Assembly: GCA_022843225.1 (NCBI GenBank)
Contig: JALHOC010000006.1
Location: 20,441-84,440, forward strand
DNA length: 64,000 nucleotides
Reading direction: 5' to 3'
Source of the DNA: Hyphomonadaceae bacterium
Lineage (GTDB): Bacteria; Pseudomonadota; Alphaproteobacteria; Caulobacterales; Aquidulcibacteraceae
Shown: positions 7,544 to 40,222 of the stretch, in pieces
Numbering within the stretch: the stretch's first letter is position 1
Layout: the number at the start of each line of letters is the position of its first letter
Translations under genes and position numbers: made by a program
The notes under the pieces: generated by a model
The model's database searches: none
Told to the model about the DNA's origin: nothing
What the model saw: the letters and a program-made list of their open reading frames with translations, nothing else

Positions 7544-7933
7544 TCAGGACTTCTCTTCCGCCGTGGCGCGTACGAGTTCCAGCACGCGCCGCCGCACCTT
7601 GATGCTGCCGATGGATGCAAACAGGCGCACCAATTCCGCGACACCCGGTATCGCGAAGAAATCCTCTTTGCTGGGCTCGCTCTTGGCGCCGCGCCGGGCG
7701 CCGCCCAGCCCCTCGAAGAAGCGCTCCACCGGCATCTCAAGCGCGTACGCGATATCGTAGAGGCGGCTGGCGGCGATGCGATTGACGCCCTTCTCGTATT
7801 TTTGCACCTGCTGGAAAGTGACGCCCAAGAGATCGGCCAGCTTCTCTTGGCTCATGCCGATTTCGAGACGGCGCGCGCGCACGCGCTCGCCCAATTTGCG
7901 GTCCACGCTGGTGGGCCCCCGCTCGTCACTCAC
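7544..7933 (-). CDS. XRE-family HTH transcriptional regulator
   Basis: LGERVRARRLEIGMSQEKLADLLGVTFQQVQKYEKGVNRIAASRLYDIAYAL is a canonical Cro/C1 HTH; probable GTG start at 7933. Confidence 0.85.
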   Translation of the reverse strand: MSDERGPTSVDRKLGERVRARRLEIGMSQEKLADLLGVTFQQVQKYEKGVNRIAASRLYDIAYALEMPVERFFEGLGGARRGAKSEPSKEDFFAIPGVAELVRLFASIGSIKVRRRVLELVRATAEEKS

Positions 7934-8126
7934 TGGACACTCCACTTTCGGCCAGCGTCCAACATGCGGGGCCAGATGCTGCCGGGCAAGCGCTGTCCCC
8001 CGCCTGGACACACAACTTGCGCGCGTGGCATGGGTTGTGGGGGCGGGATGACAAGCGCTTAAGACGCCAGTCCCGCCCCAGCGAAAGCGGGGGGCGAAAA
8101 TCACAGGCATTGAAGACTTCATCTGC

Positions 8127-9632
8127 GTGCCCGAATGGACCGAGACGCCGAAAAAGCGCGGGCTCGACCCGCTGGGCATGCAAAATAGCGGCGTCCTGCT
8201 CTACCAAAATTTGCTGCCGGGCGTCTCCAATGTGACGCTGCGCATGCGCTATTACGGCTTCTATTGCTGGCTCATTGACCTCTACGCGCGCAGACACGGA
8301 TCGACCGCCGCCGACGACTGGCGCCAATGGATCAGACGCGGCGAAGCTTTGTTCGCGCTCGCCGCCGCCAAGAAGGGCGGCGATGCGGCCTTGGGGGTTG
8401 GCGGCGTTGAATGGGCGCTTGAGACGCTGCAGACGAGCGACGACCCGATCGATTTCGGACGTGCGGCTGGGCATGAAGGCCGGGTCTACCTTGCGCAAGC
8501 GCTCGGCGTCTTTGGCGGCGCCTATGCAAGCCAAATGGTCGAAGCCGGGTTCTTCTCGCAAGGCGACAATCACGATCTCGTCGTGCCGAGCAAGATCTTG
8601 GGCGCTGACGCCGCCTTGGCCTTCAAACAGGCCGTGGGCGAGAACGCAGCCGCCATTTTCTCAGTTGCGCTTGGCGCGGGCGTCATTACGCGCGCAGCAC
8701 TCGACGAACTTGCACGCTTTGCTCCCGACGCCATTGCTGCGGACTCGACGGAATCAGCACTCTATCGGGATGCGCTTTTCGCGCGGCGTAATGATCTGAC
8801 ACAGAGCGCGCCGCGACGGCGCGATACGCTCAATCTGATTTTGCGGACGGCCAAGGAATTGGGCCGGCGGCCTAGCGTCGACGATCTGCGCTGGACATTG
8901 TTCACGCCAGCAACGGACGCTGACCCCCTCTCGGCACAGCGTTTGCGTTGGGAGGCCTATCAGCTCCAAGACCTGTTCCAGGTCGCCGCGGCGGGATTGC
9001 TGCGCTGGGCGCTCGATCTCTTGCGCGACCGCACCGACGGGGCGCCGCTCAGCGAGCTGCTCGACCTTTGCCTTGATCCGCTCTTGCCGTCCCTCCTTGG
9101 CCCGACCTGGCGCACGCATGTGCTCGCGCTGAGGGCCACCGCGCCTGACGCCCGAGACTTGTCGCGCCGCGTGACCCAGGTCCGCGGCGAGCAGCGCATG
9201 ACTTCAGAGCAAGCCATAGCTGCGCTCACATTGATCGGGGCACTTGATGCGCGCGTGCGCGAGCGCGGCGATCTTGAAGACGAAATCACGCGCTCCTTTA
9301 GCTTTGGCGATGGCTTTCGCTCGATCACAAGCGAACGCGCCTTTCTCTCGGCGCGTGAGGACGACCCCATTGCGCTGACGCTTCGACGCTTCTTCCAGGA
9401 TCGTATTCTCAATCGTCACGCGCGGGTCGCGCTCCAGAAATTCCGCACGCAGCGCGACTACACCTATCTCTTCGAGATCGAAGATGGACGCTTTCATTGG
9501 CGCGCATCCTATGCGCCGGTGTTCACGACCCCGCGGCTCGCGCCCGCGCTCACCTTCCTGACCGATATCGGCCTTCTCGATGCGCACGGTCTAACACCAG
9601 CGGGTCACACGCTGCTTGAGGAGGCGTCGTGA
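8127..9632 (+). CDS. Protein of unknown function (501 aa), first gene of putative defence operon
   Basis: Intact ORF with 4-bp overlap to the PLD gene; no recognisable catalytic motif. Confidence 0.75.
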   Translation: MPEWTETPKKRGLDPLGMQNSGVLLYQNLLPGVSNVTLRMRYYGFYCWLIDLYARRHGSTAADDWRQWIRRGEALFALAAAKKGGDAALGVGGVEWALETLQTSDDPIDFGRAAGHEGRVYLAQALGVFGGAYASQMVEAGFFSQGDNHDLVVPSKILGADAALAFKQAVGENAAAIFSVALGAGVITRAALDELARFAPDAIAADSTESALYRDALFARRNDLTQSAPRRRDTLNLILRTAKELGRRPSVDDLRWTLFTPATDADPLSAQRLRWEAYQLQDLFQVAAAGLLRWALDLLRDRTDGAPLSELLDLCLDPLLPSLLGPTWRTHVLALRATAPDARDLSRRVTQVRGEQRMTSEQAIAALTLIGALDARVRERGDLEDEITRSFSFGDGFRSITSERAFLSAREDDPIALTLRRFFQDRILNRHARVALQKFRTQRDYTYLFEIEDGRFHWRASYAPVFTTPRLAPALTFLTDIGLLDAHGLTPAGHTLLEEAS

Positions 9633-12013
9633 AACTGTTCGACGTCTTCAATCGCGGCGGCGGCACGCGCGGCTTTCACACCGCGATTGTCGCCACGTTC
9701 GGCGTTGATTTCGGCGCCTTCGAGCACGTGCTCTTGCCCCAATTCGAGGGTGCGGGGGCTGCCAATATCGTCCTCATGGGCGACGAGCGCATGCTCGCGC
9801 TCGCCGCCAATGAAGGCGCGATGCGTCCGCTTCGCGCTGGCGCGCACTATCTTGTTCACCCGCTGCGGGCGCCGATGGGCGGCGTATTTCATTCCAAGAT
9901 CGTGCTGCAATTGGGCCGGCAAGGCGCGCGCCTCATCGTCGGTTCGGCAAACGCAACAGGTCCAGGACTTGGCGGCAATCGCGAGCTCGTCGCCGAACTC
10001 AGATGCGACGAAAAACAAAGCGCCGACCAAATTATCATCGCCGATGCCTGGCGCTATTTGGAGCGGCTTGCGCGCCAAGGTGAACATGCCGACCTCGCGC
10101 AGGAGGCCTTCGCTTGGACGCGGGCGCGCACGCCTTGGCTCGCACGCGTCGAAGCCGCGCCCTCACCCGTCACGCTCTCCGATGGCACGCAATCGGCCTT
10201 CATCGCTGAGGAGGGTGATGGCGCACCCTCCATCATGGCGCGCTATTTGGATCTGATTGGCCCCGGTCCAATCGACCGGCTTATCGTCATGAGCCCTTAT
10301 TGGGACGATGGACTGGACGCCTGCCGTGAACTGATTGCCGGTCTTTCGCCCGCGCATACGCAGATTCTCATCCAACCGGGACAAAAGCTCTTTCCCACCC
10401 AGGCGCGCGGGGCTCTCAACGCCGATCTGCACGATGTCGATGCGGGAGAGGCGCAGGTCCGGCGCTTCACCCACGCCAAGCTGATCATCGCGCGCCGCGG
10501 CGACACGGATCACGTCCTGATCGGCAGCGCCAATTGCACGCGCGCGGCGTTGGGCGGACGCAATAGCTCCGGCGCCGTCAATTGCGAAGCTTGTCTCTAT
10601 CGCGCCTTGCCGGCGGGCTTGATCGAGCGTCACCTCGAATTGAGCGCGACGCTTGCCGGCGCGCCACTTGCGCCCGATGCCCTCAAGCCGCAAGATCTGG
10701 GTGAAGAGATCCCGCTTGCCGAGACAGCCGCGCGTCTCCCGGGCGCGTTTCACCTCGACGGCGCGCAATTGAGATGGCGCCCAAACGCGGCCTTCAGGGA
10801 TGCCGAGGTCCAGCTTCTCGACAAGAATGGCGACGTCGTCGGGCAGCTCGCGTTCCACACTTGGCGCACGACCGAGGATCATTGGTTTTTGTGCGATCTC
10901 GACATGGATTGTGAGGCGATCCGCTTTGCGCGCGCGGTTTCATCGACCGGCGTTTCGCTCGACGCAATTGTCGCCCACCCCGCCCATCTCGCCGGCCGCC
11001 GCAAAGAGCGCGCGACGCAGAAGGCCGCGCGCGCCAGCGCCCTGCTCGAAGACTTAGAAGATTTCGATCTCACTATGCTCGAAGCGATGGCCGAACTTGA
11101 GCGGGAAGACGACAATGAGGACGGCGCCGGTTCGCGACGGTCGCGGACTAAGCCCGCCGATGGCGCCGACGGCGCCCGGCAGCTCTCTTATGAGGATTTC
11201 ATCAAGGCGCGAGATGCGCATGCAGATGCAAAGCAAAAGGCGCGCAATACGCTTGCCGGACAGAATATCGATTCCGTGCGAGCAGCCTTAAACCGGATTT
11301 TGTTCGACGAAGACGATTCCAAGCTCTCCGGCGTCGACCCGCAGGATCTCGGTGACGATCTTGGCGAAACGGACGAAGATGGCGACGGCGGCGGTGGTGG
11401 CGCCCCGCCGCTCGGCGCTGAGCCACGATCGCCGCTCAAATCACCGCAAGAGCTAACGACCCGATCTTTCGATCCACATGACTATTCCGCCGCTGTGAAG
11501 GCGTTCCGCGAGACACTCGCCGCCCGGGCTAAGGCCAACGCAATTCGTTCGCGCGAGGCGCTACGCCTTCGGCTCATGCTCATGATCCTACTTGGCAAGG
11601 CCGATGCGCCGCTTGCGCCTTTTGGCGCGCGTAGGCTCGCCTGTGACGACACCGATACGGGATGGCCTCGGCTCGTTCTCAATCTCTGCGCCGGCTTCTT
11701 TCATGACAGGCCTTCACCGATTTCAGTGATGGCGATGGATGAGCGCTATGAAACGCTTCCCGACGATCTGCTTGAAGCCTGGGCGACGTCACTCTGGGCG
11801 CTTTCCTTGGCGCAGCATTGCTTGAAGCGCGCCCGCCCAGATGCGCGCTTGCTTCCACACTTTAGCCGTCTCATCGACGACGTGCGGGCTAAGACCGGCC
11901 TTCGCCGCGCGGATTTGGAAACCGCCCACGGACGACGTGTGCTCGAACGTCTTGGCCAAATCTTTCAGCCGCGCCTGGGCGTCAAACAATTTACTATCAA
12001 CGCGCCCTCATGA
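9629..12013 (+). CDS. Phospholipase D-like (HKD) nuclease-family protein
   Basis: Two HxK...GSxN motifs: 'FHSKIVLQLGRQGARLIVGSANATGPGLGGNREL' and 'FTHAKLIIARRGDTDHVLIGSANCTRAALGGRNSSGAVNCE'. Confidence 0.85.
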   Translation: MKLFDVFNRGGGTRGFHTAIVATFGVDFGAFEHVLLPQFEGAGAANIVLMGDERMLALAANEGAMRPLRAGAHYLVHPLRAPMGGVFHSKIVLQLGRQGARLIVGSANATGPGLGGNRELVAELRCDEKQSADQIIIADAWRYLERLARQGEHADLAQEAFAWTRARTPWLARVEAAPSPVTLSDGTQSAFIAEEGDGAPSIMARYLDLIGPGPIDRLIVMSPYWDDGLDACRELIAGLSPAHTQILIQPGQKLFPTQARGALNADLHDVDAGEAQVRRFTHAKLIIARRGDTDHVLIGSANCTRAALGGRNSSGAVNCEACLYRALPAGLIERHLELSATLAGAPLAPDALKPQDLGEEIPLAETAARLPGAFHLDGAQLRWRPNAAFRDAEVQLLDKNGDVVGQLAFHTWRTTEDHWFLCDLDMDCEAIRFARAVSSTGVSLDAIVAHPAHLAGRRKERATQKAARASALLEDLEDFDLTMLEAMAELEREDDNEDGAGSRRSRTKPADGADGARQLSYEDFIKARDAHADAKQKARNTLAGQNIDSVRAALNRILFDEDDSKLSGVDPQDLGDDLGETDEDGDGGGGGAPPLGAEPRSPLKSPQELTTRSFDPHDYSAAVKAFRETLAARAKANAIRSREALRLRLMLMILLGKADAPLAPFGARRLACDDTDTGWPRLVLNLCAGFFHDRPSPISVMAMDERYETLPDDLLEAWATSLWALSLAQHCLKRARPDARLLPHFSRLIDDVRAKTGLRRADLETAHGRRVLERLGQIFQPRLGVKQFTINAPS

Positions 12014-12032
12014 TTTAGTTTGCGAGAACACC

Positions 12033-15000
12033 ATGTTCAAACAAGCCCAAGACTACATCCTAAGCGCGGGAGACCTCACCGCGCATCTGGCCTGCGCGCA
12101 CCGGACCAATCTCGATCGCGCTGTCGCGGACGGCGTCGAACAATCGCCTCCCGTCTATAAAGATGCGATGCTCGAAGCTTTAATGGAACGCGGCAGGCGC
12201 CACGAAGCCGCCTATGTTCAGCGTCTCCGCGATCAAGGCTTGAACGTTGTGAGCATCGACGCGGTCGGCGTCAGCGACGCGGCGGTCGCGGCGACTCTGG
12301 CGGCAATGGGCGACGGCGTGGACGTGATCGTCCAGGGCGCGCTGCGTCACGGACCATGGACGGGCCGGCCTGACATTCTGCAACGGATTGATCGGCCCAG
12401 TCCGCTCGGATCATGGTCCTATCAGGTCAAGGACACCAAGCTTGCGCGCGAAACGACAGGCGCCACGGTGCTCCAACTCTGTCTTTATTCCGATCTGCTC
12501 GGCCATACCCAAGGGCTCGCCCCCGAATTCGCCTTCGCTGTCACGCCAGCGGAGAGCGGCGCCCTGGAAGAAGCTTATCGTGTCGCCGCTTATAGCGCCT
12601 TTTATCGCCGCGTAAGGCGTGCGCTTGAATCGAGCCTCGAGCAGCAGCCGCTGGCGACTTACCCAGAGCCGGTGGGCGCTTGTGATATCTGCCGCTGGTT
12701 TCAAATCTGCGACGCCAAACGCCGTAGCGACGATCATCCCTCCTTCGTTGCGGGGCTCAGTCGCACGCATATTGCCGAACTGCGCGACCATAATCTGACG
12801 ACGCTGACAGCTTTTGCCACGGCCGCCGCACCGCTGCCGTGGAAGCCAAAACGCGGCGCGCGCGAAACCTATGCGGCGCTGCAGAGACAAGCCAAGATTC
12901 AACTCGACGGCAAGCGCAGCGGGACGCCCACCTATGAACTGATTAGCTATCGCGAGGGCTTAGGGCTGGCGCGACTGCCTGCACCGTCCAAGGGCGACAT
13001 CTTTCTCGATTTTGAGGGCGACGCCTATGTCGGCGCCAGCGGCCTTGAATACTTGCTGGGCTATGTGTGCGAGGACGAGACCGGCGCACCGGTCTATCGC
13101 GGGCTCTGGGCGCGCAATCCGGTCGAAGAGAAGCAGGCCTTCGAGGCCTTCATCGATTTTGTGCTTGAGCGCCAAAAACTTTATCCCGACCTCCACATCT
13201 ACCATTATGCGCCCTACGAGCCCTCGGCGCTGAAGCGGCTCATGGGCCGCTATGTGACGCGCGAAGATGAGCTCGACGCACTGTTGCGATCGGAATGCTT
13301 TGTCGATCTCTTAAGCGTCGTCCGCAACGGCGTGCGCGCCAGCGTCGAAAGCTATTCGATCAAAAAGCTTGAGGACTTCTATGGCTATAAGCGCAAGGCC
13401 GCGCTGACCGACGCCAATCGCGCGCTAACGCGCGTGCAAGCCGCGCTCGAACTCGGCGTCACGCTCGCCGATCTCGCGGAGGATTGCGAGGTCGTGGAGC
13501 GCTACAATGAAGACGATTGCCGCTCGACGCTTGCCTTGAGAGACTGGCTTGAAACGCTCCGCCTTGAACTCATCGCTGGCGGCGCGCCCGATGCGCGGCC
13601 CGCGCCAAAATCAACGGAAGCGTCCGAGAAAGTCACCCAACGCGCGGCGCGCGAGCGCGCGCTGGTCGATGCCCTCACAGCGGGGCTTCCGGTCGATCCA
13701 GAGGCCCGGAGCGAAGCCGAGAGCGCGCATTGGCTCTTGGCTCAGCTCGTGGGTTGGCATCGGCGCGAAGATAAATCCTCCTTCCATGAGAATTATCGTC
13801 TGCAGGCGCTCTCGCCCGAAGAATTGATGGATGAACGCTGTGCGCTCGCTGGCCTTCAATTCGAGGCGGAGATCGAGCCGGGCCCAACGCCGGTGCATCG
13901 CTATCGTTTTCCCCCGCAGGAGACTGAACTGCGCGAAGGCGACAGTGTCAAAGCCGCGGGCGGCGGCAGTTTCGGCAGCGTGCGCGCGATATCAGCGGCG
14001 GAGCATTGGATCGACATAAAGAAGCAGAAAGCCACCGCGCAGACCCATGTTGCAGCCATCTATGAATTCGAGCACGTCGATTCCGAATCCGTCGCCAAAG
14101 CGATCTCGCGCATTGGCGAGCATGTCGCAACGCACGGACTCGATGACGCCTATGCGCCCGCGCGCGACCTTCTGCTGAGGCGACCGCCGCAGCCGAGCTC
14201 CGGCGTCGTGAGGCAAGCGAGCGAAGCCTTGGACGCGACCGCGGTGCGCATCATCGGCGATATGAGCGAAGGCGTGCTGCCCATTCAAGGCCCGCCTGGC
14301 GCCGGCAAGACGTTCACCGGCGCGCGCATGATCGCAAGCCTCGTGGCCGCGGGGAAGAAGGTCGGCGTCACCGCCACCAGCCACAAGGTGGTCCTGCATT
14401 TGCTGGAAGAAGCAGCGAAGGCGGCCATTTCACAAGGCGCGAAGATTCGCTGCGTCCATAAGGGCAATAAGGATCTAACTTCCCCGCATCCTGACATCGT
14501 CATCGACACCACCAGCAGCAAAGGCGCAAACAAGAAGGTGCTCGACCGCCTGGGGGTGGACGCCGATGTCATCGGCGGCACAGCGTGGCTGTGGGCCGAT
14601 GCCGATGCGCGCGATGGCGTCGATGTGCTCTTTGTTGACGAAGCCGCGCAGATGTCGCTCGCCAATGTGATCGCGGTCTCGCAAGCCGCCAAGAGCCTCG
14701 TCCTGTTGGGTGATCCGCGTCAGCTTGAGCAACCCTCGAAAGGCAGCCATCCGGACGGCGCCGATGCTTCCGCGCTCGATCACATTCTGGGCGGCGCAAA
14801 GACAATCGGCGCGAGCCAAGGTCTCTTTCTGGCTGAGACCTGGCGGCTCCATCCCAAGATTTGCGATTTTACGTCAGAGCTCTTCTATGAGGAGCGGCTT
14901 GAGCCGCGCACTGGACTTGAAGTTCAACGTGTGACCACGAGCGGGCGGCTCAATGGCGCGGGACTGCGCTATCTGCCGGTGGCGCATAGCGGCAATCAGA

Positions 15001-15440
15001 ATTCTTCAATTGAAGAAGTCGCCGCTATCTCGGCTTTGGTCAACGAGACGCTTGCTGGCTCGCCGACATGGATCGATCGCGACGGCGACGAGCACCCGCT
15101 TGACCTTGAGCACATCCTGATCGTAGCGCCCTACAATTCCCAGGTCTTCGCCTTACGCGAGCTCATGCCCAACGCGCGGATTGGCACCGTCGATAAATTC
15201 CAAGGCCAGGAGGCGCCGATCGTCATCTATTCGATGGCCAGCTCGTCGAGCGCCGATGCGCCGCGCGGGATGGAGTTTCTCTATAGCCTCAATCGCCTCA
15301 ATGTCGCGACGTCGCGCGCTAAGGCGATCTGCGTTCTGGTCGCCTCGCCTGCGCTGTTCGAGGCTGAGTGCCGCACACCCCGCCAGATGGAGCTTGCCAA
15401 CGCGCTCTGCCGCTATAAGGAGCTCGCCGAGGAGATTTGA
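12033..15440 (+). CDS. RecB/Cas4-like nuclease + DEDD-type exonuclease-like region + SF1 helicase fusion (TM0106-like family)
   Basis: N-terminal RecB-like region (GRPDILQRID...YQVKDTKLA) with possible FeS cysteines (CAHR...CDICRWFQIC); GDIFLDFEGD exonuclease-like motif; Walker A LPIQGPPGAGKTFTGA; Walker B VDVLFVDEAAQM; helicase motifs LLGDPRQLEQ and VDKFQGQEAPIVI...LNVATSRAK. Probable ATG at 12033. Confidence 0.88.
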   Translation: MFKQAQDYILSAGDLTAHLACAHRTNLDRAVADGVEQSPPVYKDAMLEALMERGRRHEAAYVQRLRDQGLNVVSIDAVGVSDAAVAATLAAMGDGVDVIVQGALRHGPWTGRPDILQRIDRPSPLGSWSYQVKDTKLARETTGATVLQLCLYSDLLGHTQGLAPEFAFAVTPAESGALEEAYRVAAYSAFYRRVRRALESSLEQQPLATYPEPVGACDICRWFQICDAKRRSDDHPSFVAGLSRTHIAELRDHNLTTLTAFATAAAPLPWKPKRGARETYAALQRQAKIQLDGKRSGTPTYELISYREGLGLARLPAPSKGDIFLDFEGDAYVGASGLEYLLGYVCEDETGAPVYRGLWARNPVEEKQAFEAFIDFVLERQKLYPDLHIYHYAPYEPSALKRLMGRYVTREDELDALLRSECFVDLLSVVRNGVRASVESYSIKKLEDFYGYKRKAALTDANRALTRVQAALELGVTLADLAEDCEVVERYNEDDCRSTLALRDWLETLRLELIAGGAPDARPAPKSTEASEKVTQRAARERALVDALTAGLPVDPEARSEAESAHWLLAQLVGWHRREDKSSFHENYRLQALSPEELMDERCALAGLQFEAEIEPGPTPVHRYRFPPQETELREGDSVKAAGGGSFGSVRAISAAEHWIDIKKQKATAQTHVAAIYEFEHVDSESVAKAISRIGEHVATHGLDDAYAPARDLLLRRPPQPSSGVVRQASEALDATAVRIIGDMSEGVLPIQGPPGAGKTFTGARMIASLVAAGKKVGVTATSHKVVLHLLEEAAKAAISQGAKIRCVHKGNKDLTSPHPDIVIDTTSSKGANKKVLDRLGVDADVIGGTAWLWADADARDGVDVLFVDEAAQMSLANVIAVSQAAKSLVLLGDPRQLEQPSKGSHPDGADASALDHILGGAKTIGASQGLFLAETWRLHPKICDFTSELFYEERLEPRTGLEVQRVTTSGRLNGAGLRYLPVAHSGNQNSSIEEVAAISALVNETLAGSPTWIDRDGDEHPLDLEHILIVAPYNSQVFALRELMPNARIGTVDKFQGQEAPIVIYSMASSSSADAPRGMEFLYSLNRLNVATSRAKAICVLVASPALFEAECRTPRQMELANALCRYKELAEEI

Positions 15441-16078: not shown

Positions 16079-16382
16079 TGCATTGCCCCAGCCCAGTTCG
16101 ACGATTTTGTCGCCCGGGCCTTGGCCTTCGTCAAATCAACCCGGCCAGATTCACGATACCGCGTCCGACAGCTTGACGGTCCGCGTAAGCAGCCCCATCT
16201 CCGCCGCATCCAGGGCCGTCGCCGCAGATCTCAGGCGACAAGAGCCGCCTGCTTTGTGCAGGGTCTGATGCGCCGAACCCACCGAGCGCCGCTGGCCAAA
16301 CCCTCACAAGGGCAAGGCGACAGCATGTTTGGCTCCCTGGCGTCTCGTCATCTCTTTTCTCGGAGCCAAGGGGTATTTTCCC

Positions 16383-17396
16383 ATGCCGCTTCGATGCCTT
16401 GATGGTCAAACAAGCATTCACGCATTCGATCTGACGCCGGAGGCGTGGAAGGCGCTCGCGGATGACAACCGGCGACGGCGTCATCTCGTGATGCCCTGCT
16501 GTGCGGCGTCCGTGGCTTTGCGGACATCGCGGCAAGGCACGCAACATTTCGCGCACAAGGCAATCGGCGCATGCACGACAGCGCCTGAAACCGAAGAGCA
16601 TCTTCGCTTGAAGCGCATCGCGGTGGAAGTCGCGCGCGACCACGGATGGGCGGCGGAAACCGAAGTCAGTCATGGCGTCCACTGGCGCGCGGACGTGATG
16701 GCGACAAAGGGTGAGGCCAAGGTCGCGATCGAAATCCAATGGTCTCAGCAAACCGATGAGGAGACGCTGCGCCGCCAGGCGCGCTACGCGGCCTTTGGCG
16801 TACGCGGTATTTGGCTGCTGCGCCAACGAAGCTTCGCACGCGATAGCGCATTGCCGGCCGCGCGTGTCTGTTTGGAGGACGGCGCCTTTCAGGCCCTGGT
16901 ACCGGCTGGCTTTGACGATCAGCGGCTTGATGTTCAAGACTTTGTGGGCGCGGCTTTGACGGGACGGCTCCATTATGGGCTACCGCTCAATTTCCCGGCC
17001 AGAATCGCGCTCAATGCCGGCGCGCTCTTTTGCTGGAAGTGTGGGGCTGAGACGCCGATCCTATCCAGCATCGCGATTGCATATGGCCCCCATCACCACC
17101 GCTTCAGCGTGGCGGATTTCACCGAGCTGCCAGAACTCTTTGCGATTGTGCGCGGGCGCCTGCCTGAAGATGCTGGGCTCGGCATTATCAAAGCGCGCTT
17201 CAGCCGAACTCAAGAGCGCGCCTATCTTTCAAATGGATGTGCGCATTGCGACGCTTTGATCGGCGAATTTCATGAGCATGAGGCTTGGGACAGCGAGCGC
17301 GTCATCGCTTCGTTTTCGATCGTTGTCGATGAAGCTTGGCGGGGAATGCTTGCGGCGCGCTCTTCGGCAGGGTGGGGCGTCTATGCCGAAATGTGA
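16383..17396 (+). CDS. CoiA-like competence/nuclease family protein
   Basis: HFAHKAIGACTTAPETEEHLRLKRIAVEVARDHGWAAETEV....HWRADVMATKGEAKVAIEIQWSQQTDEETLRRQARYAAFGVRGIWLLR matches the CoiA-type pattern (predicted endonuclease core RADV...AIEIQ). Confidence 0.7.
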   Translation: MPLRCLDGQTSIHAFDLTPEAWKALADDNRRRRHLVMPCCAASVALRTSRQGTQHFAHKAIGACTTAPETEEHLRLKRIAVEVARDHGWAAETEVSHGVHWRADVMATKGEAKVAIEIQWSQQTDEETLRRQARYAAFGVRGIWLLRQRSFARDSALPAARVCLEDGAFQALVPAGFDDQRLDVQDFVGAALTGRLHYGLPLNFPARIALNAGALFCWKCGAETPILSSIAIAYGPHHHRFSVADFTELPELFAIVRGRLPEDAGLGIIKARFSRTQERAYLSNGCAHCDALIGEFHEHEAWDSERVIASFSIVVDEAWRGMLAARSSAGWGVYAEM

Positions 17397-19306: not shown

Positions 19307-20010
19307 ATCGACGGGATCGGCAATTCGTTGAGCTCGCGCCGCGCCTCGGCCCAGTTCGGGTAGAGCTCGCTCAGAAGCTTGGTGAAGCGGGCGCTATGTG
19401 TGGGTTCAAGTATGTGCACGATCTCGTGGACGATCACATATTCCAAGAGATCACGGGGCTTCTTCACTAGTTCCGTATTGAGCCGGATGGTTTTGCGGGC
19501 GGTGTTGCAGCTGCCCCATTTGGTTTTCATGCGCTGGAGGAAATAGGCTCTGACCTTCACGCCGGCGCGGACTTCCCACTTCTTGATCAGCGTGGGCACA
19601 AGCGCGTGCAGCTGGCGCAAATGCCACGCGTGGAGCACGCGCGCGCGGTCGTCTCGCGTACTTCCGGGCCGCACCTGCAAGTGGATTGTCCGGTGATCGA
19701 GACGCACAGCGGGCTTGGCGTCGCGCTCGGTGACTTTGAGCAGATAGCGGCGGCCCCAGAGATAATGGGATTCTCGGGTGACGAATTTGCGCGGGGTCTC
19801 GCGCGCTTGCGCCGCCAAGCGCGCGCGCTGCTGCTTGATCCAGCCGATCCGGGTGATGGCGTAAGCGCGGGCGACATCGAGCCTGGTCGATCGCGGCGCG
19901 ACAAGGGTCACACTTCCATCGGGCGGATGAACGGAGAGATGGACGTTCTTCACGTCCTTGCGCGTCACGGCGATGCTGATGTCGCCGATTTTGATGGCGA
20001 CGCTCATCAA
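19303..20010 (-). CDS. YgjP/DUF45-type metallopeptidase (RM-associated)
   Basis: VIVHEIVHILEPTHSARF...YPNW motif; 4-bp overlap with hsdR. Confidence 0.88.
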   Translation of the reverse strand: MMSVAIKIGDISIAVTRKDVKNVHLSVHPPDGSVTLVAPRSTRLDVARAYAITRIGWIKQQRARLAAQARETPRKFVTRESHYLWGRRYLLKVTERDAKPAVRLDHRTIHLQVRPGSTRDDRARVLHAWHLRQLHALVPTLIKKWEVRAGVKVRAYFLQRMKTKWGSCNTARKTIRLNTELVKKPRDLLEYVIVHEIVHILEPTHSARFTKLLSELYPNWAEARRELNELPIPSI

Positions 20011-23000
20011 TAGCCCGGCTGGTTCTTGACGATCTCAAACATAGCAAGCGTTGCTTCGCGGTCGCGATCGAACAGCGGAAAGAGCACGTTCTTCACTTCC
20101 TTCTGACGCACGCTGTCGCTCTTCCAGCCCGCCGGCGCATATTCGCGGACGGCGCGATCGATGCGCAGCGCAAGTTCGGCTTTGGCGCCGTCATCGGGTG
20201 GGCACACGAAAGTGGTCGCCGGCAGACTTGCGAGATTGTTGTAGATCACCGCCGCCTCCCGTTTGCCGTGCAGGCTTGGCGGCAGACCCGCATCGGGCTC
20301 GCGCGCGCTCATGCGGCGGATGAGAGCTTCGGCTTGCCGCAAGAAATTCTCGTAGGCCTGGGCGTCGGCGCGGCTTTGACGAATGAGATCATCCAGAAGA
20401 TCTGACATTTCATCGTAGAATTTGGGATCGGTCAGCTGATCGCGAATGATGGTCTTGCGGATATTGTTGATGATGCCTTCGGCGACAGCGTTGGCGGAAA
20501 GCTTGCCCTTATTATTCAATTGCCGGGCAATGTCGTCATGGATGCCGGTTTCGACAATCGCTTGGGTCAGCGACACATCGCTCAGCGTGCCCAGAATTTG
20601 CGGCGCGTCAGCCTGGATATAGGTGTTGAGCAAGTGGCGCATATCCGCCTCGTAGGGCTTGATGTCGAGCTCTTCACCGGAATGACGTTTGATCGCCGCA
20701 CGTAGGTCCGCATAGAGTTCGGCCTCACCCTTGATGCGAGCGGCCTCGTCGGCGCTGTAGCCCGCCTCTTCCAAATGTTGCGCGATCGCCGAATAAGCGC
20801 GCACGAAACTTGCAACCGCCTTGTAGAAGGCGATGCGCAAGGGCTCGGTTTCGTTGAGTGCATTTGGATTGGCGGCAGGCCCGCAGAAATAGCTCAGATA
20901 TTGTTCGACTTCGCGCGGCGGCGGCACCGGCTCACACAAATAATGGAGCACTTCACGCGCGCCATCGAGCCGCGCCTTGCCCTCTTCCAGCCAATTCTTG
21001 ATCTCGACAATGTTGGAGCCGCCGCTGCCTTCATCGGTGTCGAGTTCATCGGAGGTATAGACCGCGATCGCGTGCTGGACGTGGCCGAACAGCTCCTGGA
21101 AGTCGACGATATAGCCATAATCCTTGTCGTCCCCGTCCAAGCGATTGGTGCGGCAGATGGCTTGGAAAAGGGTGTGATCGCGCAGCGTGTCGTCGATATA
21201 GATGTAAGTGCAGCTCGGCGCGTCAAAGCCGGTCAAGAGCTTTGAGACCACAATGAGGAGCTTGGTATTGGCCGGCTCCTCAATGAAGCGGCGCTTGATC
21301 TCAGCCTCATACGCCGTCGTGCTTTGTCCGCCTGTGAGCACGAACCTTGTATAGGTGTCGTATTTGTAGCGCTCGTCGCTATTGGCCGGCTCGCGCGAGA
21401 TGGCGTTGTGATTGGGTTCGTAGGACGTGACGATGCCGACATGGGCGCCGAGGCGCGTGTTCTGAAACTCGCGGAAATATTCGCAGGCGTCGCGAATGGA
21501 GGCCGCGACCAGGATTGCTGTGCCGCGGTCGTCGCTGAGGCGGGGTTTGAGATCAAAGTCCTGAACCACTTCCGCCACCACCCGGCGTTTGCGTTCAGTG
21601 GCGCTGAGCAATTCTTCCATCGTCGCCCAGCGGGCGCGCAGCACGGCCTTCTGGTAGGAATTGAGCCCCCTCGTCTTGCGATCGAACCAGGCATCGATCG
21701 CGGTGGGGCTGGTCAGACGCTGCGGCACGTCGCGGGCTTCATATTTGAGATCCAGCACGACCTTGTCGCGCACCGCTTCCTGAAGCTTGTAGGTGTGAAT
21801 ATACGTGCCAAAGACTTCGCGGGTCGTTTCGCGGTCCTTGCGCAACAGCGGCGTGCCGGTGAAGCCGACAAAGATCGCCCCTTCCAGCCATCTCTTCATC
21901 TGCTTGTTCATCGCCCCGCCCTGGGTGCGATGGCATTCATCGACCAGCACATAAAAGCGCCCGGTCACTTTGGGGGGCGGGCCTGAAAAATCGGCGGTGT
22001 CGAACTTGTGCAGGAGCGCGCAAATGAGCCTTGGCGCTGGCGCGCCGAGCCAGCTTACGAATTCGGCGCGGGAGGCGACACGCGGCGAACGCGCTTCGGG
22101 ACCGATGACGCCCGCATTGCGCATGACGCCCTCGATCTGCTTATCGAGTTCGTCGCGGTCAGTGACAATGAGGACGCGCGCATCGGCTTCGCGCTCCAAG
22201 ATCCACTTGGCCAAGAGCACCATCAGAATGCTCTTGCCGCTGCCTTGGGTGTGCCAGATCACCCCGCCTTCGCGCTTGGCCAAGCGCTCCTGCGCCAGCT
22301 TGATGCCGACGAATTGATGCTGGCGAGGGACTTTCTTGCGGCCTGCATCGAAGACAACGAAATTGCGGATGAAGTCGAGCAAACGCTCCTTGCGCAACAT
22401 CTGGCCGATCGGCCGGTCGAGCAGCGCGCCCGCGGGCAGCTCCCCCGCCAACGGCGCCTCGTCGCGCCACTCGGCATAGAAGGTCTCGTCGGTGCTCACC
22501 GTGCCGTAGCGCACGCCTTGGGCGTCGCTGCCGGCGATCAGGAGCTGCGCTGTGGCAAAGAACGCTGCGTTGAAGAGTTCCTCTTGATTGGTGATGAGCT
22601 GGCGCACGCCGTCGCCGATCTCGACTGCCGCCCGCTTCAATTCGATCACCGCAACGGCAAGACCATTGAGATAGACGACAAGATCGGGCCGGCGTTCGTG
22701 GCCACCCTTAAGCGTGACTTCCTCGGCCAAAGCGAAATCATTGGCCTCGGGATTGTCCCAATCGATCAGGTGGACGGTCTTGAACGGTGCGCCGACTGCG
22801 GTCTGCACGCGGACGCCGTAGCGCAGCAGCGTGTAGGTCCTGAGATTGGCTTGATAGAGCGTCGTGCCTGTGACTTCGATCGCCTGAATCAAGCGCGTAA
22901 GCGCGGCATCGATCTCGGGCTTGGCATAGCCGCGCGCGCTTAGATTGGCGCGCAACAGCTCAGCCTCGACGCAGCGATTGTTGTTTCGTCCCGACCAGTC

Positions 23001-23102
23001 GCCCGCCGCACGATAGCCAAGACCACCCTCCTCCGCGGGCGCGGTGATGAAGGCCGCGAGACGATCTTGGGTGACGCGTTCGCTGCGCGGGCGTTCAGCC
23101 AT
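20007..23102 (-). CDS. hsdR: Type I restriction endonuclease subunit R
   Basis: N-terminal nuclease (RPDLVVYLNGLAVAVIELKRA), Walker A VIWHTQGSGKSILMV, DECHRTQGG, FTGTPL, KLLTGFDAP. Confidence 0.95.
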   Translation of the reverse strand: MAERPRSERVTQDRLAAFITAPAEEGGLGYRAAGDWSGRNNNRCVEAELLRANLSARGYAKPEIDAALTRLIQAIEVTGTTLYQANLRTYTLLRYGVRVQTAVGAPFKTVHLIDWDNPEANDFALAEEVTLKGGHERRPDLVVYLNGLAVAVIELKRAAVEIGDGVRQLITNQEELFNAAFFATAQLLIAGSDAQGVRYGTVSTDETFYAEWRDEAPLAGELPAGALLDRPIGQMLRKERLLDFIRNFVVFDAGRKKVPRQHQFVGIKLAQERLAKREGGVIWHTQGSGKSILMVLLAKWILEREADARVLIVTDRDELDKQIEGVMRNAGVIGPEARSPRVASRAEFVSWLGAPAPRLICALLHKFDTADFSGPPPKVTGRFYVLVDECHRTQGGAMNKQMKRWLEGAIFVGFTGTPLLRKDRETTREVFGTYIHTYKLQEAVRDKVVLDLKYEARDVPQRLTSPTAIDAWFDRKTRGLNSYQKAVLRARWATMEELLSATERKRRVVAEVVQDFDLKPRLSDDRGTAILVAASIRDACEYFREFQNTRLGAHVGIVTSYEPNHNAISREPANSDERYKYDTYTRFVLTGGQSTTAYEAEIKRRFIEEPANTKLLIVVSKLLTGFDAPSCTYIYIDDTLRDHTLFQAICRTNRLDGDDKDYGYIVDFQELFGHVQHAIAVYTSDELDTDEGSGGSNIVEIKNWLEEGKARLDGAREVLHYLCEPVPPPREVEQYLSYFCGPAANPNALNETEPLRIAFYKAVASFVRAYSAIAQHLEEAGYSADEAARIKGEAELYADLRAAIKRHSGEELDIKPYEADMRHLLNTYIQADAPQILGTLSDVSLTQAIVETGIHDDIARQLNNKGKLSANAVAEGIINNIRKTIIRDQLTDPKFYDEMSDLLDDLIRQSRADAQAYENFLRQAEALIRRMSAREPDAGLPPSLHGKREAAVIYNNLASLPATTFVCPPDDGAKAELALRIDRAVREYAPAGWKSDSVRQKEVKNVLFPLFDRDREATLAMFEIVKNQPGY

Positions 23103-24393
23103 AAGCGGCCTCCTTCATCTTCGGCGCAGCCTCCCGCGCAATTGGAAGGCGCACGCGGCCCGTGAGCAAGGAGTGCATCATGGCTTGCTTGAGTGCGCGG
23201 GTCTTTTCGAGACGGGCCTCCGTCGCGAAGAGGTCAGAGTTCCAATCGGAGATGACGCGGCCAATTGCTCTCTGCTCGTCTACCCTTGGGAGCTTCACAC
23301 TTATCGCGCCAAGCGCGGCCGCGCTGATATGCACAACCGCGTCGCCCTGGCCCCTATTGGCCTTTTGGCGAGCTATCTCTGGTATGTTTAGGAGGTTTCC
23401 AAGAAACACAGGGTCTCCGCTGGCGGGCCTTAAGATGATGATATCTCCGCCGGCATAGGCCTCAACATCCTCCGCAATCGCGACGCACTTCCCGATTTCT
23501 TCCTTGGTCTCGCCGGAAGCAGCAAAGAGCAAGTCTCCGCGCTGAATCCGCGTGGCTGCGTCAGCAACCGCGCGCGAGACGTGTGAAGTGAATTTGCATA
23601 CGACGTTGTGATGGGTCGTGTAGATTTCACCATATCGCACACATGGAAGGTCCCCCGACTGCGCATCATCGCGGCGCACGCCTCCACCCTTCAAGAACCG
23701 GCCGAGGTCACTGAGCTTTGTTTCGATCCATTGAGCGGTGAAGCCGGGGAGACGCGTCTCGCCGGTGAGGAGACGCTGAGTCACGCCCTGTCGCAGGTTG
23801 CGCTTCTTGCCGATGAATCGCGAAAGCGCTGCGATCGAAGCATCCACATCTAACAGCGCTGCAGCTATCGCCCGTTGTTCATGAACCGGGGGCCTGGGAA
23901 TCCGAAGCTGGCCGATTAGATCGGTGTTCAAATTTGGTTGGCCATTTCCTGTTGCCACAGTTTCCCGAAGAAACTTGGTCATCGAGTTTATGCAATAGAC
24001 CACAAACTCGGGGCACACTTCGCGGTCCAGCTGAAGCAACGCAGCTACCCCGTCGTTCGCGCAGCAATCTATTGCCAACAGCTTAGCCACACCTAACGTG
24101 GCGCCGCTGTTTGCGATTATAACCGTTCCGGACGGGAGCTCGCGGCTATGCTTCGCGCCCAGTTCGGTCAGCGACGTGTCTGTAACACGGACGTAAATAT
24201 CTTCGTCCGCAAGATTCGTCAGCGCCGCGACGGTGAGCCACGGCTTGAAAGATCCGTTGAAGTAACGAGGATCACCCGCGGGACGCGGAGACGCCCCGCG
24301 AACGGGATTTGCCAGCGCCCCGATGGTGGCCACTCCCCACTCCACCGGCAATATGCCGATCTCGGTCGCCTTATAGCCGGGACTCGACTTCAT
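23095..24393 (-). CDS. hsdS: Type I restriction specificity subunit S
   Basis: Two target-recognition half-domains with repeated 'RIPRPPVHEQRAIAAALLDVDASI' and 'KLPRVDEQRAIGRVISDWNSDL' conserved regions. Confidence 0.93.
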   Translation of the reverse strand: MKSSPGYKATEIGILPVEWGVATIGALANPVRGASPRPAGDPRYFNGSFKPWLTVAALTNLADEDIYVRVTDTSLTELGAKHSRELPSGTVIIANSGATLGVAKLLAIDCCANDGVAALLQLDREVCPEFVVYCINSMTKFLRETVATGNGQPNLNTDLIGQLRIPRPPVHEQRAIAAALLDVDASIAALSRFIGKKRNLRQGVTQRLLTGETRLPGFTAQWIETKLSDLGRFLKGGGVRRDDAQSGDLPCVRYGEIYTTHHNVVCKFTSHVSRAVADAATRIQRGDLLFAASGETKEEIGKCVAIAEDVEAYAGGDIIILRPASGDPVFLGNLLNIPEIARQKANRGQGDAVVHISAAALGAISVKLPRVDEQRAIGRVISDWNSDLFATEARLEKTRALKQAMMHSLLTGRVRLPIAREAAPKMKEAAYG

Positions 24394-26879
24394 ATCACAC
24401 CCATCGCCTTCAGGTGCGTTGTTATACGGGCCCCAAGCACATCAGCATCTTTTTCAAGTTGTGGAAGCGAAATCGCGTAGCGCTCGACAAGGGTGCTGAC
24501 TCGACGTGTTAGAGCTTGCGACAGTCGCGCGATCTCGCTGTCAATACGCGCATTGATGACGCTGAGCCACTTGGCATTGATGACAATCGCCTTCACTTCG
24601 CTGCCTTTGAGCGTGCCATATCGGGCGTGGACTTTGGCGATGAGGCTCTCCTCCGCCGCCTTTCGCTTCTTTTTTGTTTCGTCGAGCGCATCGATCAGAA
24701 CTTGATAGCCAAGCAGGGCTTCGCGTTCGTCGGCGAGATCGGGATCGCCATTGATCTCCTTCAATCGGGCTTTGAGGGTTTTGGAATTGATCTTCTGCTT
24801 GTCGCCGTCGCCCTCGATCACTTCGCTGAGCAGTCCGTCTTCGCCGCCGCCCTCTTCGAGCTTTTCCGCCATTTTCTGTTCGAGTTCGGTCATACGCGCT
24901 TCGAGCGCGTCGATCGCGGCTTGTTCGGTTGAGAAATAGCGGGCGATGATGAGCCTTGAGGGGACAAGGTCGGAGGCGAAGCGCCGTTTGCCGATTTGGT
25001 AGTCACCCGGCTCGGGCCAAACGAGCTTGTTGTCTTTGTTTTTGCGTTTGATGATTTCGCGGGGGCGTACGGCCTCGGCCCAGCCTGCGGCGGCAATCAG
25101 ATAGCAATCGTCCTGCATCGCCTCGGCCCAATAATCCATCAGCTGCTGATAGACATCGTAGGGGTCGACCAAAGGCGCCTTACGAAAGGTGTCGAGCAAG
25201 TCATCCGAGATCGCTTCGATGAAATCCTTGGGGTGGCTGTCGATACCGAAGCCGCGGGCGGCTTTCTCGGTGCGCGTGCGCCAGGCGGCGAACGTATCGC
25301 CGGCGGCTTTGGTGAAAGCTTGAAACTCGGGATCGGTCTCGATCGCTTGCTTCACCTCGCTTGCTTGCAGGGTGAGCGCCAGATAACCCGGACGCAGATC
25401 GGCGAAGAGCTTGCCGCGTAGATTGGGCATCACCTTCCACCAGGATTCGAGCGCGTCGATGTCTCTCTTCGGGATGCCGCCATTCAGATGCGCGTCGATG
25501 TCGTGGATGTCTTCGACATCGGTGCTGTCGATGTAGCGCGGCAGATTGAGATTATAATCGTTCTTGGGATCGGCGATCTCGTCGGTTGCGACCATGCGCG
25601 CATAGCCGGGCACATCAGCGCCGCGGGCGAAGCTATCGACAATGCGATGGATGTCTTGTTCGCGCAGGCGGTTTTTGGGGCCGTCTTTGCGGAAGCCTTT
25701 CGAGGCGTCGATCATGAAGACGCCGCGGCGCGCATTGGCGTTCTCTTTGTCGAGCACGACGATGCAGGCGGGAATGCCGGTGCCGAAAAAGAGGTTGGCG
25801 GGGAGCCCGATAATGCCCTTGAGATAACCCGATTTGACCAGGGCTTGGCGGATCTCGGCTTCGGCATTGCCGCGGAAGAGCACGCCATGTGGGAGAATGC
25901 AGGCAGCTTTCCCATTCGATTTCATCGAGCGGATGATGTGCAAGAGATAGGCGTAATCGCCCTGCTTTGGCGGCGGCGCGCCCCAACCGAAACGCGCGTG
26001 CGGATCGCGTTCGATATTGATGCCGTTCGACCAGGCTTTGTCCGAGAATGGCGGATTGGCGACGACGTAATCGTAGGTGCGCAGGCGATCGCCATCCAAG
26101 AATTTGGGATTGGCGAGCGTGTTGCCGGGCATGATCCGCGCGGTCGGGAAATCGTGCAAGATCATGTTCATGCGGGCAAGGCCCGCCGTGGTCACGTCCT
26201 TCTCTTGCCCTTCAAGCGTGATGCGCTTGCCGGATTCGGCCGCGACCTTCAGCAGCAACGATCCCGATCCGCAGGTGGGATCGTACACCGTCGTGCCGGC
26301 CACCGTGTTCTTTGGCGAAATGCCGATGACTTTAGCGATGATGCGGCTGACCTCCGACGGGGTATAGAATTGGCCTTTGCTCTTGCCGCTCTGCGTCGCG
26401 AAGTGACGCATCAGATATTCGTAGGCGTCGCCCAGAATGTCGTCGTGATCGGCGCGGTTCTTCGAGAAATCGAGATCGGGGTTTTCGAAGATGGCGATGA
26501 GATTGCTGAGCGTTGCAACCTGCTCATCGCCCTCGCCCAATTTGTTGGGATCGTTGAAATCGGGGAAGTCGGTGCGCGCTAGGCTCTCATTGGCGTTCAC
26601 CAGCGGCTGGATCACGTCGGTGTTGATGAGGTTGCCGATGTCGGCCTTGCCCTTGAGCGCGACCATATCGGCGAAGCTTGCGCCTTTAGGGATGATGATC
26701 GGCGGCTCTAAGGCGTCACTGTTCGCGTATTTGTCCGATACGTATTTGATGAACAGCATGAAGAGGACGTAGTCTTTGTATTGACTAGCATCCATGCCGC
26801 CGCGGAGCTCGTCGCACGACGCCCACAGCGACGAATAGAGATCTGATTTCTTGACGGCCACCCCAGCCCCTTTATCCAC
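24390..26879 (-). CDS. hsdM: Type I DNA methyltransferase subunit M
   Basis: GQFYTPSEVSRIIAKVIG, VYDPTCGSGSLLLK, VVANPPFSDKAW (NPPF motif). Confidence 0.95.
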   Translation of the reverse strand: MDKGAGVAVKKSDLYSSLWASCDELRGGMDASQYKDYVLFMLFIKYVSDKYANSDALEPPIIIPKGASFADMVALKGKADIGNLINTDVIQPLVNANESLARTDFPDFNDPNKLGEGDEQVATLSNLIAIFENPDLDFSKNRADHDDILGDAYEYLMRHFATQSGKSKGQFYTPSEVSRIIAKVIGISPKNTVAGTTVYDPTCGSGSLLLKVAAESGKRITLEGQEKDVTTAGLARMNMILHDFPTARIMPGNTLANPKFLDGDRLRTYDYVVANPPFSDKAWSNGINIERDPHARFGWGAPPPKQGDYAYLLHIIRSMKSNGKAACILPHGVLFRGNAEAEIRQALVKSGYLKGIIGLPANLFFGTGIPACIVVLDKENANARRGVFMIDASKGFRKDGPKNRLREQDIHRIVDSFARGADVPGYARMVATDEIADPKNDYNLNLPRYIDSTDVEDIHDIDAHLNGGIPKRDIDALESWWKVMPNLRGKLFADLRPGYLALTLQASEVKQAIETDPEFQAFTKAAGDTFAAWRTRTEKAARGFGIDSHPKDFIEAISDDLLDTFRKAPLVDPYDVYQQLMDYWAEAMQDDCYLIAAAGWAEAVRPREIIKRKNKDNKLVWPEPGDYQIGKRRFASDLVPSRLIIARYFSTEQAAIDALEARMTELEQKMAEKLEEGGGEDGLLSEVIEGDGDKQKINSKTLKARLKEINGDPDLADEREALLGYQVLIDALDETKKKRKAAEESLIAKVHARYGTLKGSEVKAIVINAKWLSVINARIDSEIARLSQALTRRVSTLVERYAISLPQLEKDADVLGARITTHLKAMGVI

Positions 26880-29638: not shown

Positions 29639-30847
29639 TTGTGGAAGAGCGCTGTGAACACACCTGAGCAGACACATAACGTCAGCAAAGTAATCGGTGA
29701 TCTACGCGACCACTTGGCAAGACACGACAAACCGATCGCGTTCCTGATGGGCGCTGGCGCCTCATGCGCAGTAAGAATCGACGACGGAAAGGGCGGCTCC
29801 AAGCCAATTATCCCCGCCGTGCCCGGGCTGACTGCCCATTGTCGCGCAAATGGAGCGGGACTTGGGCAGCAGTTCGCATCAGCATGGGACGCGATCGAGG
29901 AGCATTGCAGAGCCTCGGGCCAGGTTTCCAACATCGAGAGCATCTTGTCTCGCTTACGCATGATGCTGGGTGCAGTTGGAGATGGCGATACACTCGCGGG
30001 ACTGAATCGCGAGGAAATCAAACGTCTCGAAGAAAACGTTCTCAAATCCATCGCGACAATGGTGACTCCCAATCTTGATGCGTTGGACCCCAATTACCCG
30101 CATAGGCAATTCGCGCGCTGGCTCGCAAAGACAGTCCGGAGGCAGCCCCTCGAAGTCTTCACGCTCAACTACGATGTGTTGATAGAAAATGCGCTCGAAT
30201 GTGAACGCGTCCCCTTCTTCGACGGATTCGTCGGCGGGTATCGCCCATTTTTCCATGCTGACAGCCTGCGTCGACCGGAAGCAGCACCCGGCGCTGCTTG
30301 GACAAGACTATGGAAGATGCACGGCTCGGTGACGTGGCGTCGGATTGTGGCGCCCATTGGTTCGCGCATCGTGCGCGGAGCCCCGGATCCGCAAGGAGAG
30401 ATGATTTATCCGTCACATCAGAAGTATGACGACTCTCGCCAGCAACCTTATGCCGCGTTTACCGATCGACTCTCGCGCTTTCTGGATCAAGATGACGCAT
30501 TGCTTATCGTAGTCGGGTTTTCATTCGGCGATGAGCACATCAACAACATTATTTTCGGCGCACTGGACAATCGCCCCCGTACGCACGTCTACGCACTACA
30601 GTTTGACGAGCAAAGCGATGATCAACCACTCGCTACCCGCGCACTGCAACGCGCCAATGTCATAGCCATTGGCCCCGACACTGGGATCATCGGCTGCAAG
30701 CGGGCGCCATGGACCGGTGGCACCGGTCTTGAAGACGGAATCATCAGCGGCGAAACCGGAGCCAAACAGCGGCTTCATATTGGCGACTTCGCTGTCTTTA
30801 GCACTTTCCTTCAGAACATGGCGGCGCGCAACGATGCCAATAACTGA
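29639..30847 (+). CDS. SIR2-domain defence effector
   Basis: FLMGAGASCAV, VFTLNYDVLIENALE, LWKMHGSVTW, LIVVGFSFGDEHINNIIF: SIR2-like motifs; directly overlaps a HerA ATPase. Confidence 0.85.
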   Translation: MWKSAVNTPEQTHNVSKVIGDLRDHLARHDKPIAFLMGAGASCAVRIDDGKGGSKPIIPAVPGLTAHCRANGAGLGQQFASAWDAIEEHCRASGQVSNIESILSRLRMMLGAVGDGDTLAGLNREEIKRLEENVLKSIATMVTPNLDALDPNYPHRQFARWLAKTVRRQPLEVFTLNYDVLIENALECERVPFFDGFVGGYRPFFHADSLRRPEAAPGAAWTRLWKMHGSVTWRRIVAPIGSRIVRGAPDPQGEMIYPSHQKYDDSRQQPYAAFTDRLSRFLDQDDALLIVVGFSFGDEHINNIIFGALDNRPRTHVYALQFDEQSDDQPLATRALQRANVIAIGPDTGIIGCKRAPWTGGTGLEDGIISGETGAKQRLHIGDFAVFSTFLQNMAARNDANN

Positions 30848-38894: not shown

Positions 38895-40202
38895 TTATTG
38901 AACGATGGGCAATTGGCACGTCCCCCCGCATGGCGGCGTGCCGGAGATCGGCCCATGAATTCCTGGCGCTGCGACCAGAATGTGGCCCAGATCACCCAAT
39001 GGGTGTGGCTGGCGATGTGTGGTGTCGCGCAGATTCGCGGGCGACCAACCAGCGCTCCAATGCGCACTCAGCGCGCTGCGTTTGGGATGATCGTAGGAAT
39101 TGCCGGCGCCATAGGAGAGATACCACGGCGCATTCGGTGAGGCTGGCGCCAGAGGCGGACTTCCGCCTGACAAGCCGCCGTGGTGGGAAACCACCAACGC
39201 ATCGGCGCGCGCGCCGGCGAATGATTGGGGAAGCGCGGAATAAGCGCAATCGCCGGTGAAAAAGACCCCGTCATGTGTGCACCAATCGGGCCTGTAGCGC
39301 ATAGCAAGCCCAGAATCATTGCGCGAGGCGCCCTGGCATTTGGCGATCTCGATCGCGTTGTATGTGATCGACGTCTTGGAATCGTCCCAAAACTCAACCC
39401 GCGCGCCGCCCGCGATCAGTCGCATCAAGAACGCTTTGTGCACCGGCCCAATCTTCTGGCGCGGTACGATCCAAGTCGTCCCTTCAAGATTGGCGGCAAG
39501 TGCTGCGCCTTGCGAGCGCATAGCGCTCGACCAATGATCCCAATCCCAATGCGACATGATAATCGTCGGCTTTCGCGTCATGCACAGATGCCGCAGCGCG
39601 TCGGGATAAGTCCGCGTGTTTTGCAGCACGCCGCCGCCGAAGTCGAAATAGAGGCAGGGGTTGGCGCTCGCCTCCAAGATAGCGCTGCAGCTGCCCTGCC
39701 CCACATCATAGATCGCGGCCATGTCGGCGTGTGCGTCCGTTCTGGCAAGCGCCTCTTCGATGCGATGCTCTGAAGCCGACGGGAAGGCGTCTTCGGGCGG
39801 CGACGCCAGAATGCGTCGCCCAGTCCCAGCATCAACAGGAACCGCATGGGCGACGCCGCGCAGCGCCGCTGCGCCGAAGAGATTAAAGTATTGCCTCAGT
39901 GCGACATCGCGCAGCGCATCATCGAATCGAATATCGAGCACGACGCCTTCGGGCGCGGTGGCCAGCAAATGCGGATCGCCCTGCCGTGCTTCATATTCCA
40001 GCACCGACAAAGGCATGCCTTCGGGCGCGGACCAAGCATATCCATAGGCTTGTTCGAGAACGAACTCGGCGTCGATCGCCTCAAAATGACGGAGCGCTGG
40101 CCCTTCATCCGGCCGCTCCTCGCCGGCCAGCACTGCAAGGACGCGCCGCGGAGGACGCTCCTCCCATCCGCGCTCGGGATCGAAGTCGAAGAAGTCACGC
40201 AT
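38895..40202 (-). CDS. MBL-fold hydrolase-like protein, variant metal motif
   Basis: YDVGQGSCSAILEA..., IIMSHWDWDHWSS (HxDxDH variant), FFTGDCAY, LVVSHHGG. Confidence 0.78.
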   Translation of the reverse strand: MRDFFDFDPERGWEERPPRRVLAVLAGEERPDEGPALRHFEAIDAEFVLEQAYGYAWSAPEGMPLSVLEYEARQGDPHLLATAPEGVVLDIRFDDALRDVALRQYFNLFGAAALRGVAHAVPVDAGTGRRILASPPEDAFPSASEHRIEEALARTDAHADMAAIYDVGQGSCSAILEASANPCLYFDFGGGVLQNTRTYPDALRHLCMTRKPTIIMSHWDWDHWSSAMRSQGAALAANLEGTTWIVPRQKIGPVHKAFLMRLIAGGARVEFWDDSKTSITYNAIEIAKCQGASRNDSGLAMRYRPDWCTHDGVFFTGDCAYSALPQSFAGARADALVVSHHGGLSGGSPPLAPASPNAPWYLSYGAGNSYDHPKRSALSAHWSAGWSPANLRDTTHRQPHPLGDLGHILVAAPGIHGPISGTPPCGGTCQLPIVQ

Positions 40203-40222
40203 CGGCCCTCACCGGAGTTGGC

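Follow-up and report, generated by a model that had tools for sequence, protein, structure and literature searches.

The three genes described here, A, B and H, appear, on balance, to represent a divergent and mostly stand-alone ZacAB-like defence pair (A and B) accompanied by a facultative helicase partner (H), with a putative anti-phage role. They lie in a window of 64,000 nucleotides from a Hyphomonadaceae bacterium (contig JALHOC010000006.1), the term window denoting the whole stretch of DNA that was analysed (Table 1). The ORF calls agree with the sequence-only reading, according to which three intact and tightly linked genes are present, with a 4-bp overlap between A and B followed by a 19-bp gap between B and H. 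That reading had, moreover, regarded the three genes as one conserved system. This part was not borne out: the conserved unit consists of A and B only, and the three genes do occur together elsewhere, but only rarely, namely at two other loci in the order H-A-B.

Table 1. Features of the A-B-H locus and its surroundings, given as positions in the window.
Feature	Position	Strand	Evidence
A: ZacA-like, predicted all-helical subunit, 501 aa, GTG start	8127-9632	+	ORF call, ZacA model, hhalign, AlphaFold
B: ZacB-like PLD nuclease (predicted), 794 aa, GTG start, two active-site motifs, C-terminal helical region	9629-12013	+	ORF call, ZacB model, hhalign, structure model
A/B stop-start overlap, 4 bp	9629-9632	+	also seen in 84 of the 92 other loci with a measured A-B junction
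H: TM0106-family RecB-like nuclease + DEDD-like RNase H fold + SF1 (UPF1/DNA2-like) helicase, 1135 aa, ATG start	12033-15440	+	ORF call, TIGR03491, AAA_12
H: RecB/Cas4-type nuclease motifs (GRPD, D-x-K, Q-x3-Y) and C-x2-C-x5-C cluster	12363-12710	+	residue positions, conservation
H: Walker A GPPGAGKT	14289-14312	+	motif position
XRE-type regulator ORF, divergent	7544-8179	-	HTH_3 E=1.4e-11
Type I restriction-modification operon, complete (HsdM, HsdS, HsdR)	20007-26879	-	
SIR2 (402 aa) + HerA (672 aa) defence pair	29639-32687	+	SIR2 E=8e-130, HerA E=7e-155

A scan of the A alignment against 85,462 genomes yielded 96 relatives; 80 of these were retained, and plasmids and viral contigs added further loci. 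A few loci in this set are duplicates from one contig. Clustering at 85% identity leaves at least 64 distinct A proteins. A and B are adjacent and co-directional in all 92 other loci with a measurable junction, and a stop/start overlap of the form xTGA is found in 84 of these. Such pairs occur in Alpha-, Beta- and Gammaproteobacteria, in an Opitutia MAG, on Bacteroidota plasmids and on putative viral contigs (six matches to A, of which two are short), whereas no homologue of B was found in the phage records searched for it. Many pairs reside on conjugative plasmids, and the overall distribution is patchy, with variable defence neighbours. B is interrupted at two loci (L109 and L131) and A is in fragments at another (L142), owing to either decay or sequencing error. 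The divergent XRE regulator noticed in the sequence-only reading is indeed present, its real start probably lying inside the ORF as called, but no homologue of it was found beside other A-B pairs. The XRE gene was therefore rejected as part of the conserved unit and is a local feature. A scan for sigma-70 promoters found none.

Judged by profile comparison, B is a clear homologue of ZacB, yet a distant one which belongs to another subfamily than ZacB itself. The PADLOC ZacB model matches B with E=1.1e-18 and all 42 members of the B family, and an hhalign comparison with true ZacB gave a probability of 98% (E=1.4e-13). B had been proposed to be a PLD protein with two HKD-like motifs. A Pfam match to PLDc_2 (E=4e-8) and two motifs which are invariant in all 42 aligned sequences, H88-x-K90-x17-N108-x10-E119 and H282-x-K284-x17-N302-x17-E320, support this, but the Asp found in true HKD motifs is missing, and the motifs are of the Tdp1/BfiI type. 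Tdp1 likewise lacks the HKD Asp. A search of the PDB with the structure model of B (pLDDT 83.9) returned Tdp1 as the top match (E=6e-9), followed by phosphatidylserine synthase, SauUSI, NgoAVII R and BfiI, and B is predicted to adopt a Tdp1-like single-chain double-PLD fold containing both BfiI-type active sites. In BfiI, a metal-independent nuclease that forms a covalent phosphohistidine intermediate, the active site is composed of H105, K107, N125 and E136 (PMC4081073), and the spacing of these residues is identical to that of the first motif of B. As two half-sites are present in a single chain, B would be a self-contained nuclease.

The relationship of A is more distant. No Pfam family matched A above the cutoff, and the PADLOC ZacA model matched it weakly (E=6.7e-4), spanning 62 of 396 positions. 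Among the members of the A family, 32 of 44 were matched by this model, the best with 8e-8. Comparison of A with true ZacA by hhalign gave a probability of 69% (E=4.5e-5) over 83 columns at the N-terminus only, where the profiles have a motif of the form L-P-G-x-S-x-x-T-x-R-x-R-Y in common. A may thus be regarded as a distant relative of ZacA, with a weak link that is limited to the N-terminus. As the models split true ZacAs, which score below 1e-88, sharply from the A family, A-B represents a distinct branch; with its at least 64 clusters it is a widespread ZacAB-like branch to which the 2023 PADLOC models give only weak matches. The AlphaFold model of A is all-helical (pLDDT 92.6, pTM 0.90) and had no match at E<=0.001 in a structure search of the PDB, in which A also has no relatives by sequence. 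The predicted fold of this subunit thus lacks a significant counterpart in the PDB. That A has a role in regulation or targeting is our guess, based on the strictness with which it is paired with B.

Azaca, with the subunits ZacA, ZacB and ZacC, was reportedly described by Millman et al. in 2022; a literature search on the three subunit names returned unrelated papers only. Passages on Azaca in two articles mention a PLD subunit and a helicase subunit (PMC10952713, PMC12278908). In the four true Azaca loci that were found, the order is A, B and an SNF2-type helicase. The window resembles this arrangement in its order A-B-helicase and its combination of a PLD effector with a helicase, in addition to the distant homology of B to ZacB and the probable one of A to ZacA. 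However, with 501 and 794 aa, A and B differ in size from ZacA (about 390 aa) and ZacB (about 620 aa), A resembles ZacA at the N-terminus only, H is an SF1 TM0106 helicase-nuclease whereas ZacC is of the SNF2 type, and most members of the A-B family of the window lack a helicase. H is not matched by the ZacC model, and a ZacC hidden elsewhere in the genome was dismissed, as the sole match of this model in the whole genome was a weak fragment on another contig. As ZacC is missing, the locus is filed as Azaca-like and not as Azaca. The proposal of an unnamed system therefore stands insofar as no full named system covers the locus, but it has to be qualified by the match to Azaca, to which B, and probably also A, is distantly homologous. 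The comparison suggests that the core of Azaca consists of A and B, whereas the helicase would be exchangeable.

Mokosh and DISARM, too, combine a PLD protein with a helicase, but the earlier view that the locus belongs to neither was confirmed: the three proteins include no kinase, no DrmA, no DrmB and no methylase. Mokosh consists of the kinase/RNA-helicase MkoA with MkoB, or of MkoC, a helicase-PLD fusion. In the window, only the SF1 C-terminal part of H matches MkoA and MkoC, no kinase domain was found and the PLD domain resides on a separate ZacB-like protein. As for DISARM, B has only short matches to DrmC (26.8 bits against an NCBIfam cutoff of 133 bits). A further parallel is provided by the ATP-dependent restriction systems CglI and NgoAVII, which comprise a PLD R-protein, a helicase-like N-protein and a methylase, and in which the PLD nucleases R.CglI and R.NgoAVII are inert without their ATPase partner (PMC4267653). 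There, too, a PLD nuclease gene adjoins that of an ATP-driven helicase-type protein, and NgoAVII R is among the structural matches of B. In contrast to these systems, Pfam identified neither a methylase nor a B3 recognition domain in A, B and H, B has two half-sites in one chain and H belongs to SF1 and not to SF2.

For H, the earlier assignment of a Cas4/RecB-like nuclease with cysteines, a DEDD-like exonuclease part and an SF1 helicase was corroborated. The RecB-like nuclease model TIGR03491 matches with E=1e-69 (235.7 bits, cutoff 97.45), and Pfam identifies RNase_H_2 (E=2.3e-16), AAA_12 (E=3.1e-22) and AAA_11. An alignment of 15 sequences shows no variation in the RecB residues D114, D134, K136, Q148 and Y152, in the cysteines 21, 217, 220 and 226 or, within the helicase, in Walker A K759, motif II DE869-870 and motif VI R1095. 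With its TIGR03491 domain, intact motifs and C-terminal SF1 helicase, H is a full-length member of the TM0106 family (TIGR03491 with AAA_11/AAA_12), which no more than a few percent of genomes encode; the nearest relative found shares 58% identity. What sets H apart is that members of this family nearly always lack A-B alongside.

In the survey, H adjoins A-B in only two other loci, in both cases upstream of the pair: in Ruegeria conchae (L074) with a gap of 31 bp and in a Rhodobacteraceae strain (L101) with a 4-bp overlap. Neither A nor B lies alongside H at 34 further loci of its family, roughly half of which include several kilobases of flanking sequence; here, H relatives are found beside SIR2-HerA, CBASS or SbcCD-like genes or without an evident partner. 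In L058 (4986-11372), for example, a TM0106 helicase directly follows a CBASS operon with a phospholipase effector, a cyclase and an E2. A SIR2-HerA pair, which the window also carries, lies near the TM0106 helicase on a plasmid of R. johnstonii (L051), where the helicase is split into two overlapping ORFs (7977-11373; decay or sequencing error), and a SIR2 plus ATP-binding pair does so in Mesorhizobium (L053). In the tree of H, the sister of the window protein is an unlinked H from the same genus, whereas the two A-B-linked proteins from Rhodobacterales are sister to each other. The linkage label thus needs two changes, which indicates that the association arose at least twice independently, yet is rare. 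As most A-B loci are without a close helicase, H cannot be essential to the A-B family and is a facultative partner; an obligate three-gene operon was ruled out by the neighbourhood surveys from both the A-B side and the H side.

As for a mechanism, B may act as the effector: with its two half-sites in a single chain, it would be a PLD nuclease that needs no metal and cuts invading DNA via a phosphohistidine intermediate, while A, as a large helical protein, would restrain B or direct it to its target. H would move along foreign DNA, unwinding and trimming it and thereby feeding or licensing B, which is probably also the task of the SNF2-type ZacC in Azaca. DNA as the target, a complex of A and B, cooperation of H with this complex and an anti-phage outcome are thus what we infer. 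Since the PLD nucleases of CglI and NgoAVII are inert without their ATPase partner, a helicase partner for A-B is reasonable; as most A-B pairs lack a helicase, they must be capable of working on their own or of recruiting enzymes from the host or from neighbouring genes.

It is possible, but in our view less probable, that A-B is a complete two-gene system, with H as a stand-alone helicase for defence or repair, unrelated to the pair, which came to lie downstream by chance in the same island. The H-family loci without A or B, the close relatives of H that stand alone or beside SIR2-HerA, CBASS and SbcCD-like genes, the lack of H at most A-B pairs and the sister relationship with an unlinked H of the same genus would all be in line with such a coincidence. 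Yet tight co-directional linkage is observed three times, with 19 bp, 31 bp and a 4-bp overlap, with two different gene orders and no fewer than two independent origins. As H is present in so few genomes, repeated adjacency appears unlikely without coupling, even though clustering in islands raises the odds. The opposite extreme, a strict three-gene new defence system in which every subunit is required, is very unlikely: the operon-like spacing in the window and the recurrence of A, B and H in R. conchae and the Rhodobacteraceae strain fit with it, but H is missing from about 90 A-B loci, A-B is missing from H loci and the gene order varies. Even less credible is a unit for DNA repair or element maintenance, in which a Tdp1-like B clears protein-DNA adducts and H processes the ends. 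Although Tdp1 is the top structural match of B, shares its lack of the HKD Asp and many A-B pairs are plasmid-borne, the patchy distribution with changing defence neighbours, the homology of B to ZacB and its matches to the restriction nucleases SauUSI, NgoAVII and BfiI speak against this idea.

The neighbours of A-B pairs elsewhere include type I RM, Zorya (L009), a DrmD-like SNF2 protein (L010), MmeI, Hma-type genes and UvrD-like helicases (L092 and L018). On the Myroides plasmid pFM-G13 (L011, 9935-14052), a type I restriction operon has A-B inserted between its hsdS and hsdR genes; elsewhere, A-B pairs overlap or abut HsdR (L107; an overlap with hsdR in Roseococcus) or MmeI (L136). In L083 (3864-13869), the HmaB methylase (E=0) and the Swt1-HEPN/DUF499 ATPase of an Hma-type operon lie directly 5' of A-B, 3 bp from A. 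A tally of 94 near neighbours revealed no single dominant partner of A-B, with even the commonest Pfam families reaching counts of only three or four. It is conceivable, if rather doubtful, that A-B is a portable PLD-nuclease cassette docking on whichever DNA translocase or restriction system is adjacent and turning translocation into a second cut; for the pair of the window and its H-linked relatives the partner might then be the SF1 helicase-nuclease, for Azaca the SNF2-type ZacC and for other pairs HsdR of type I RM or Hma, Zorya or DrmD-like proteins.

The earlier description of an island rich in defence genes was correct, as the window also contains the type I restriction-modification operon and the SIR2-HerA pair. 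Shortly 3' of A-B-H, a CoiA-like nuclease-domain protein is encoded (16329-17396, plus strand; PF06054 E=1.6e-9). Farther downstream (38895-45255, minus strand), genes for a metallo-beta-lactamase protein (LmuA 4.6e-14, Avs1a 1.2e-7), a 1186-aa subtilase and a 435-aa orphan lie side by side and possibly form a candidate MBL-protease defence operon.
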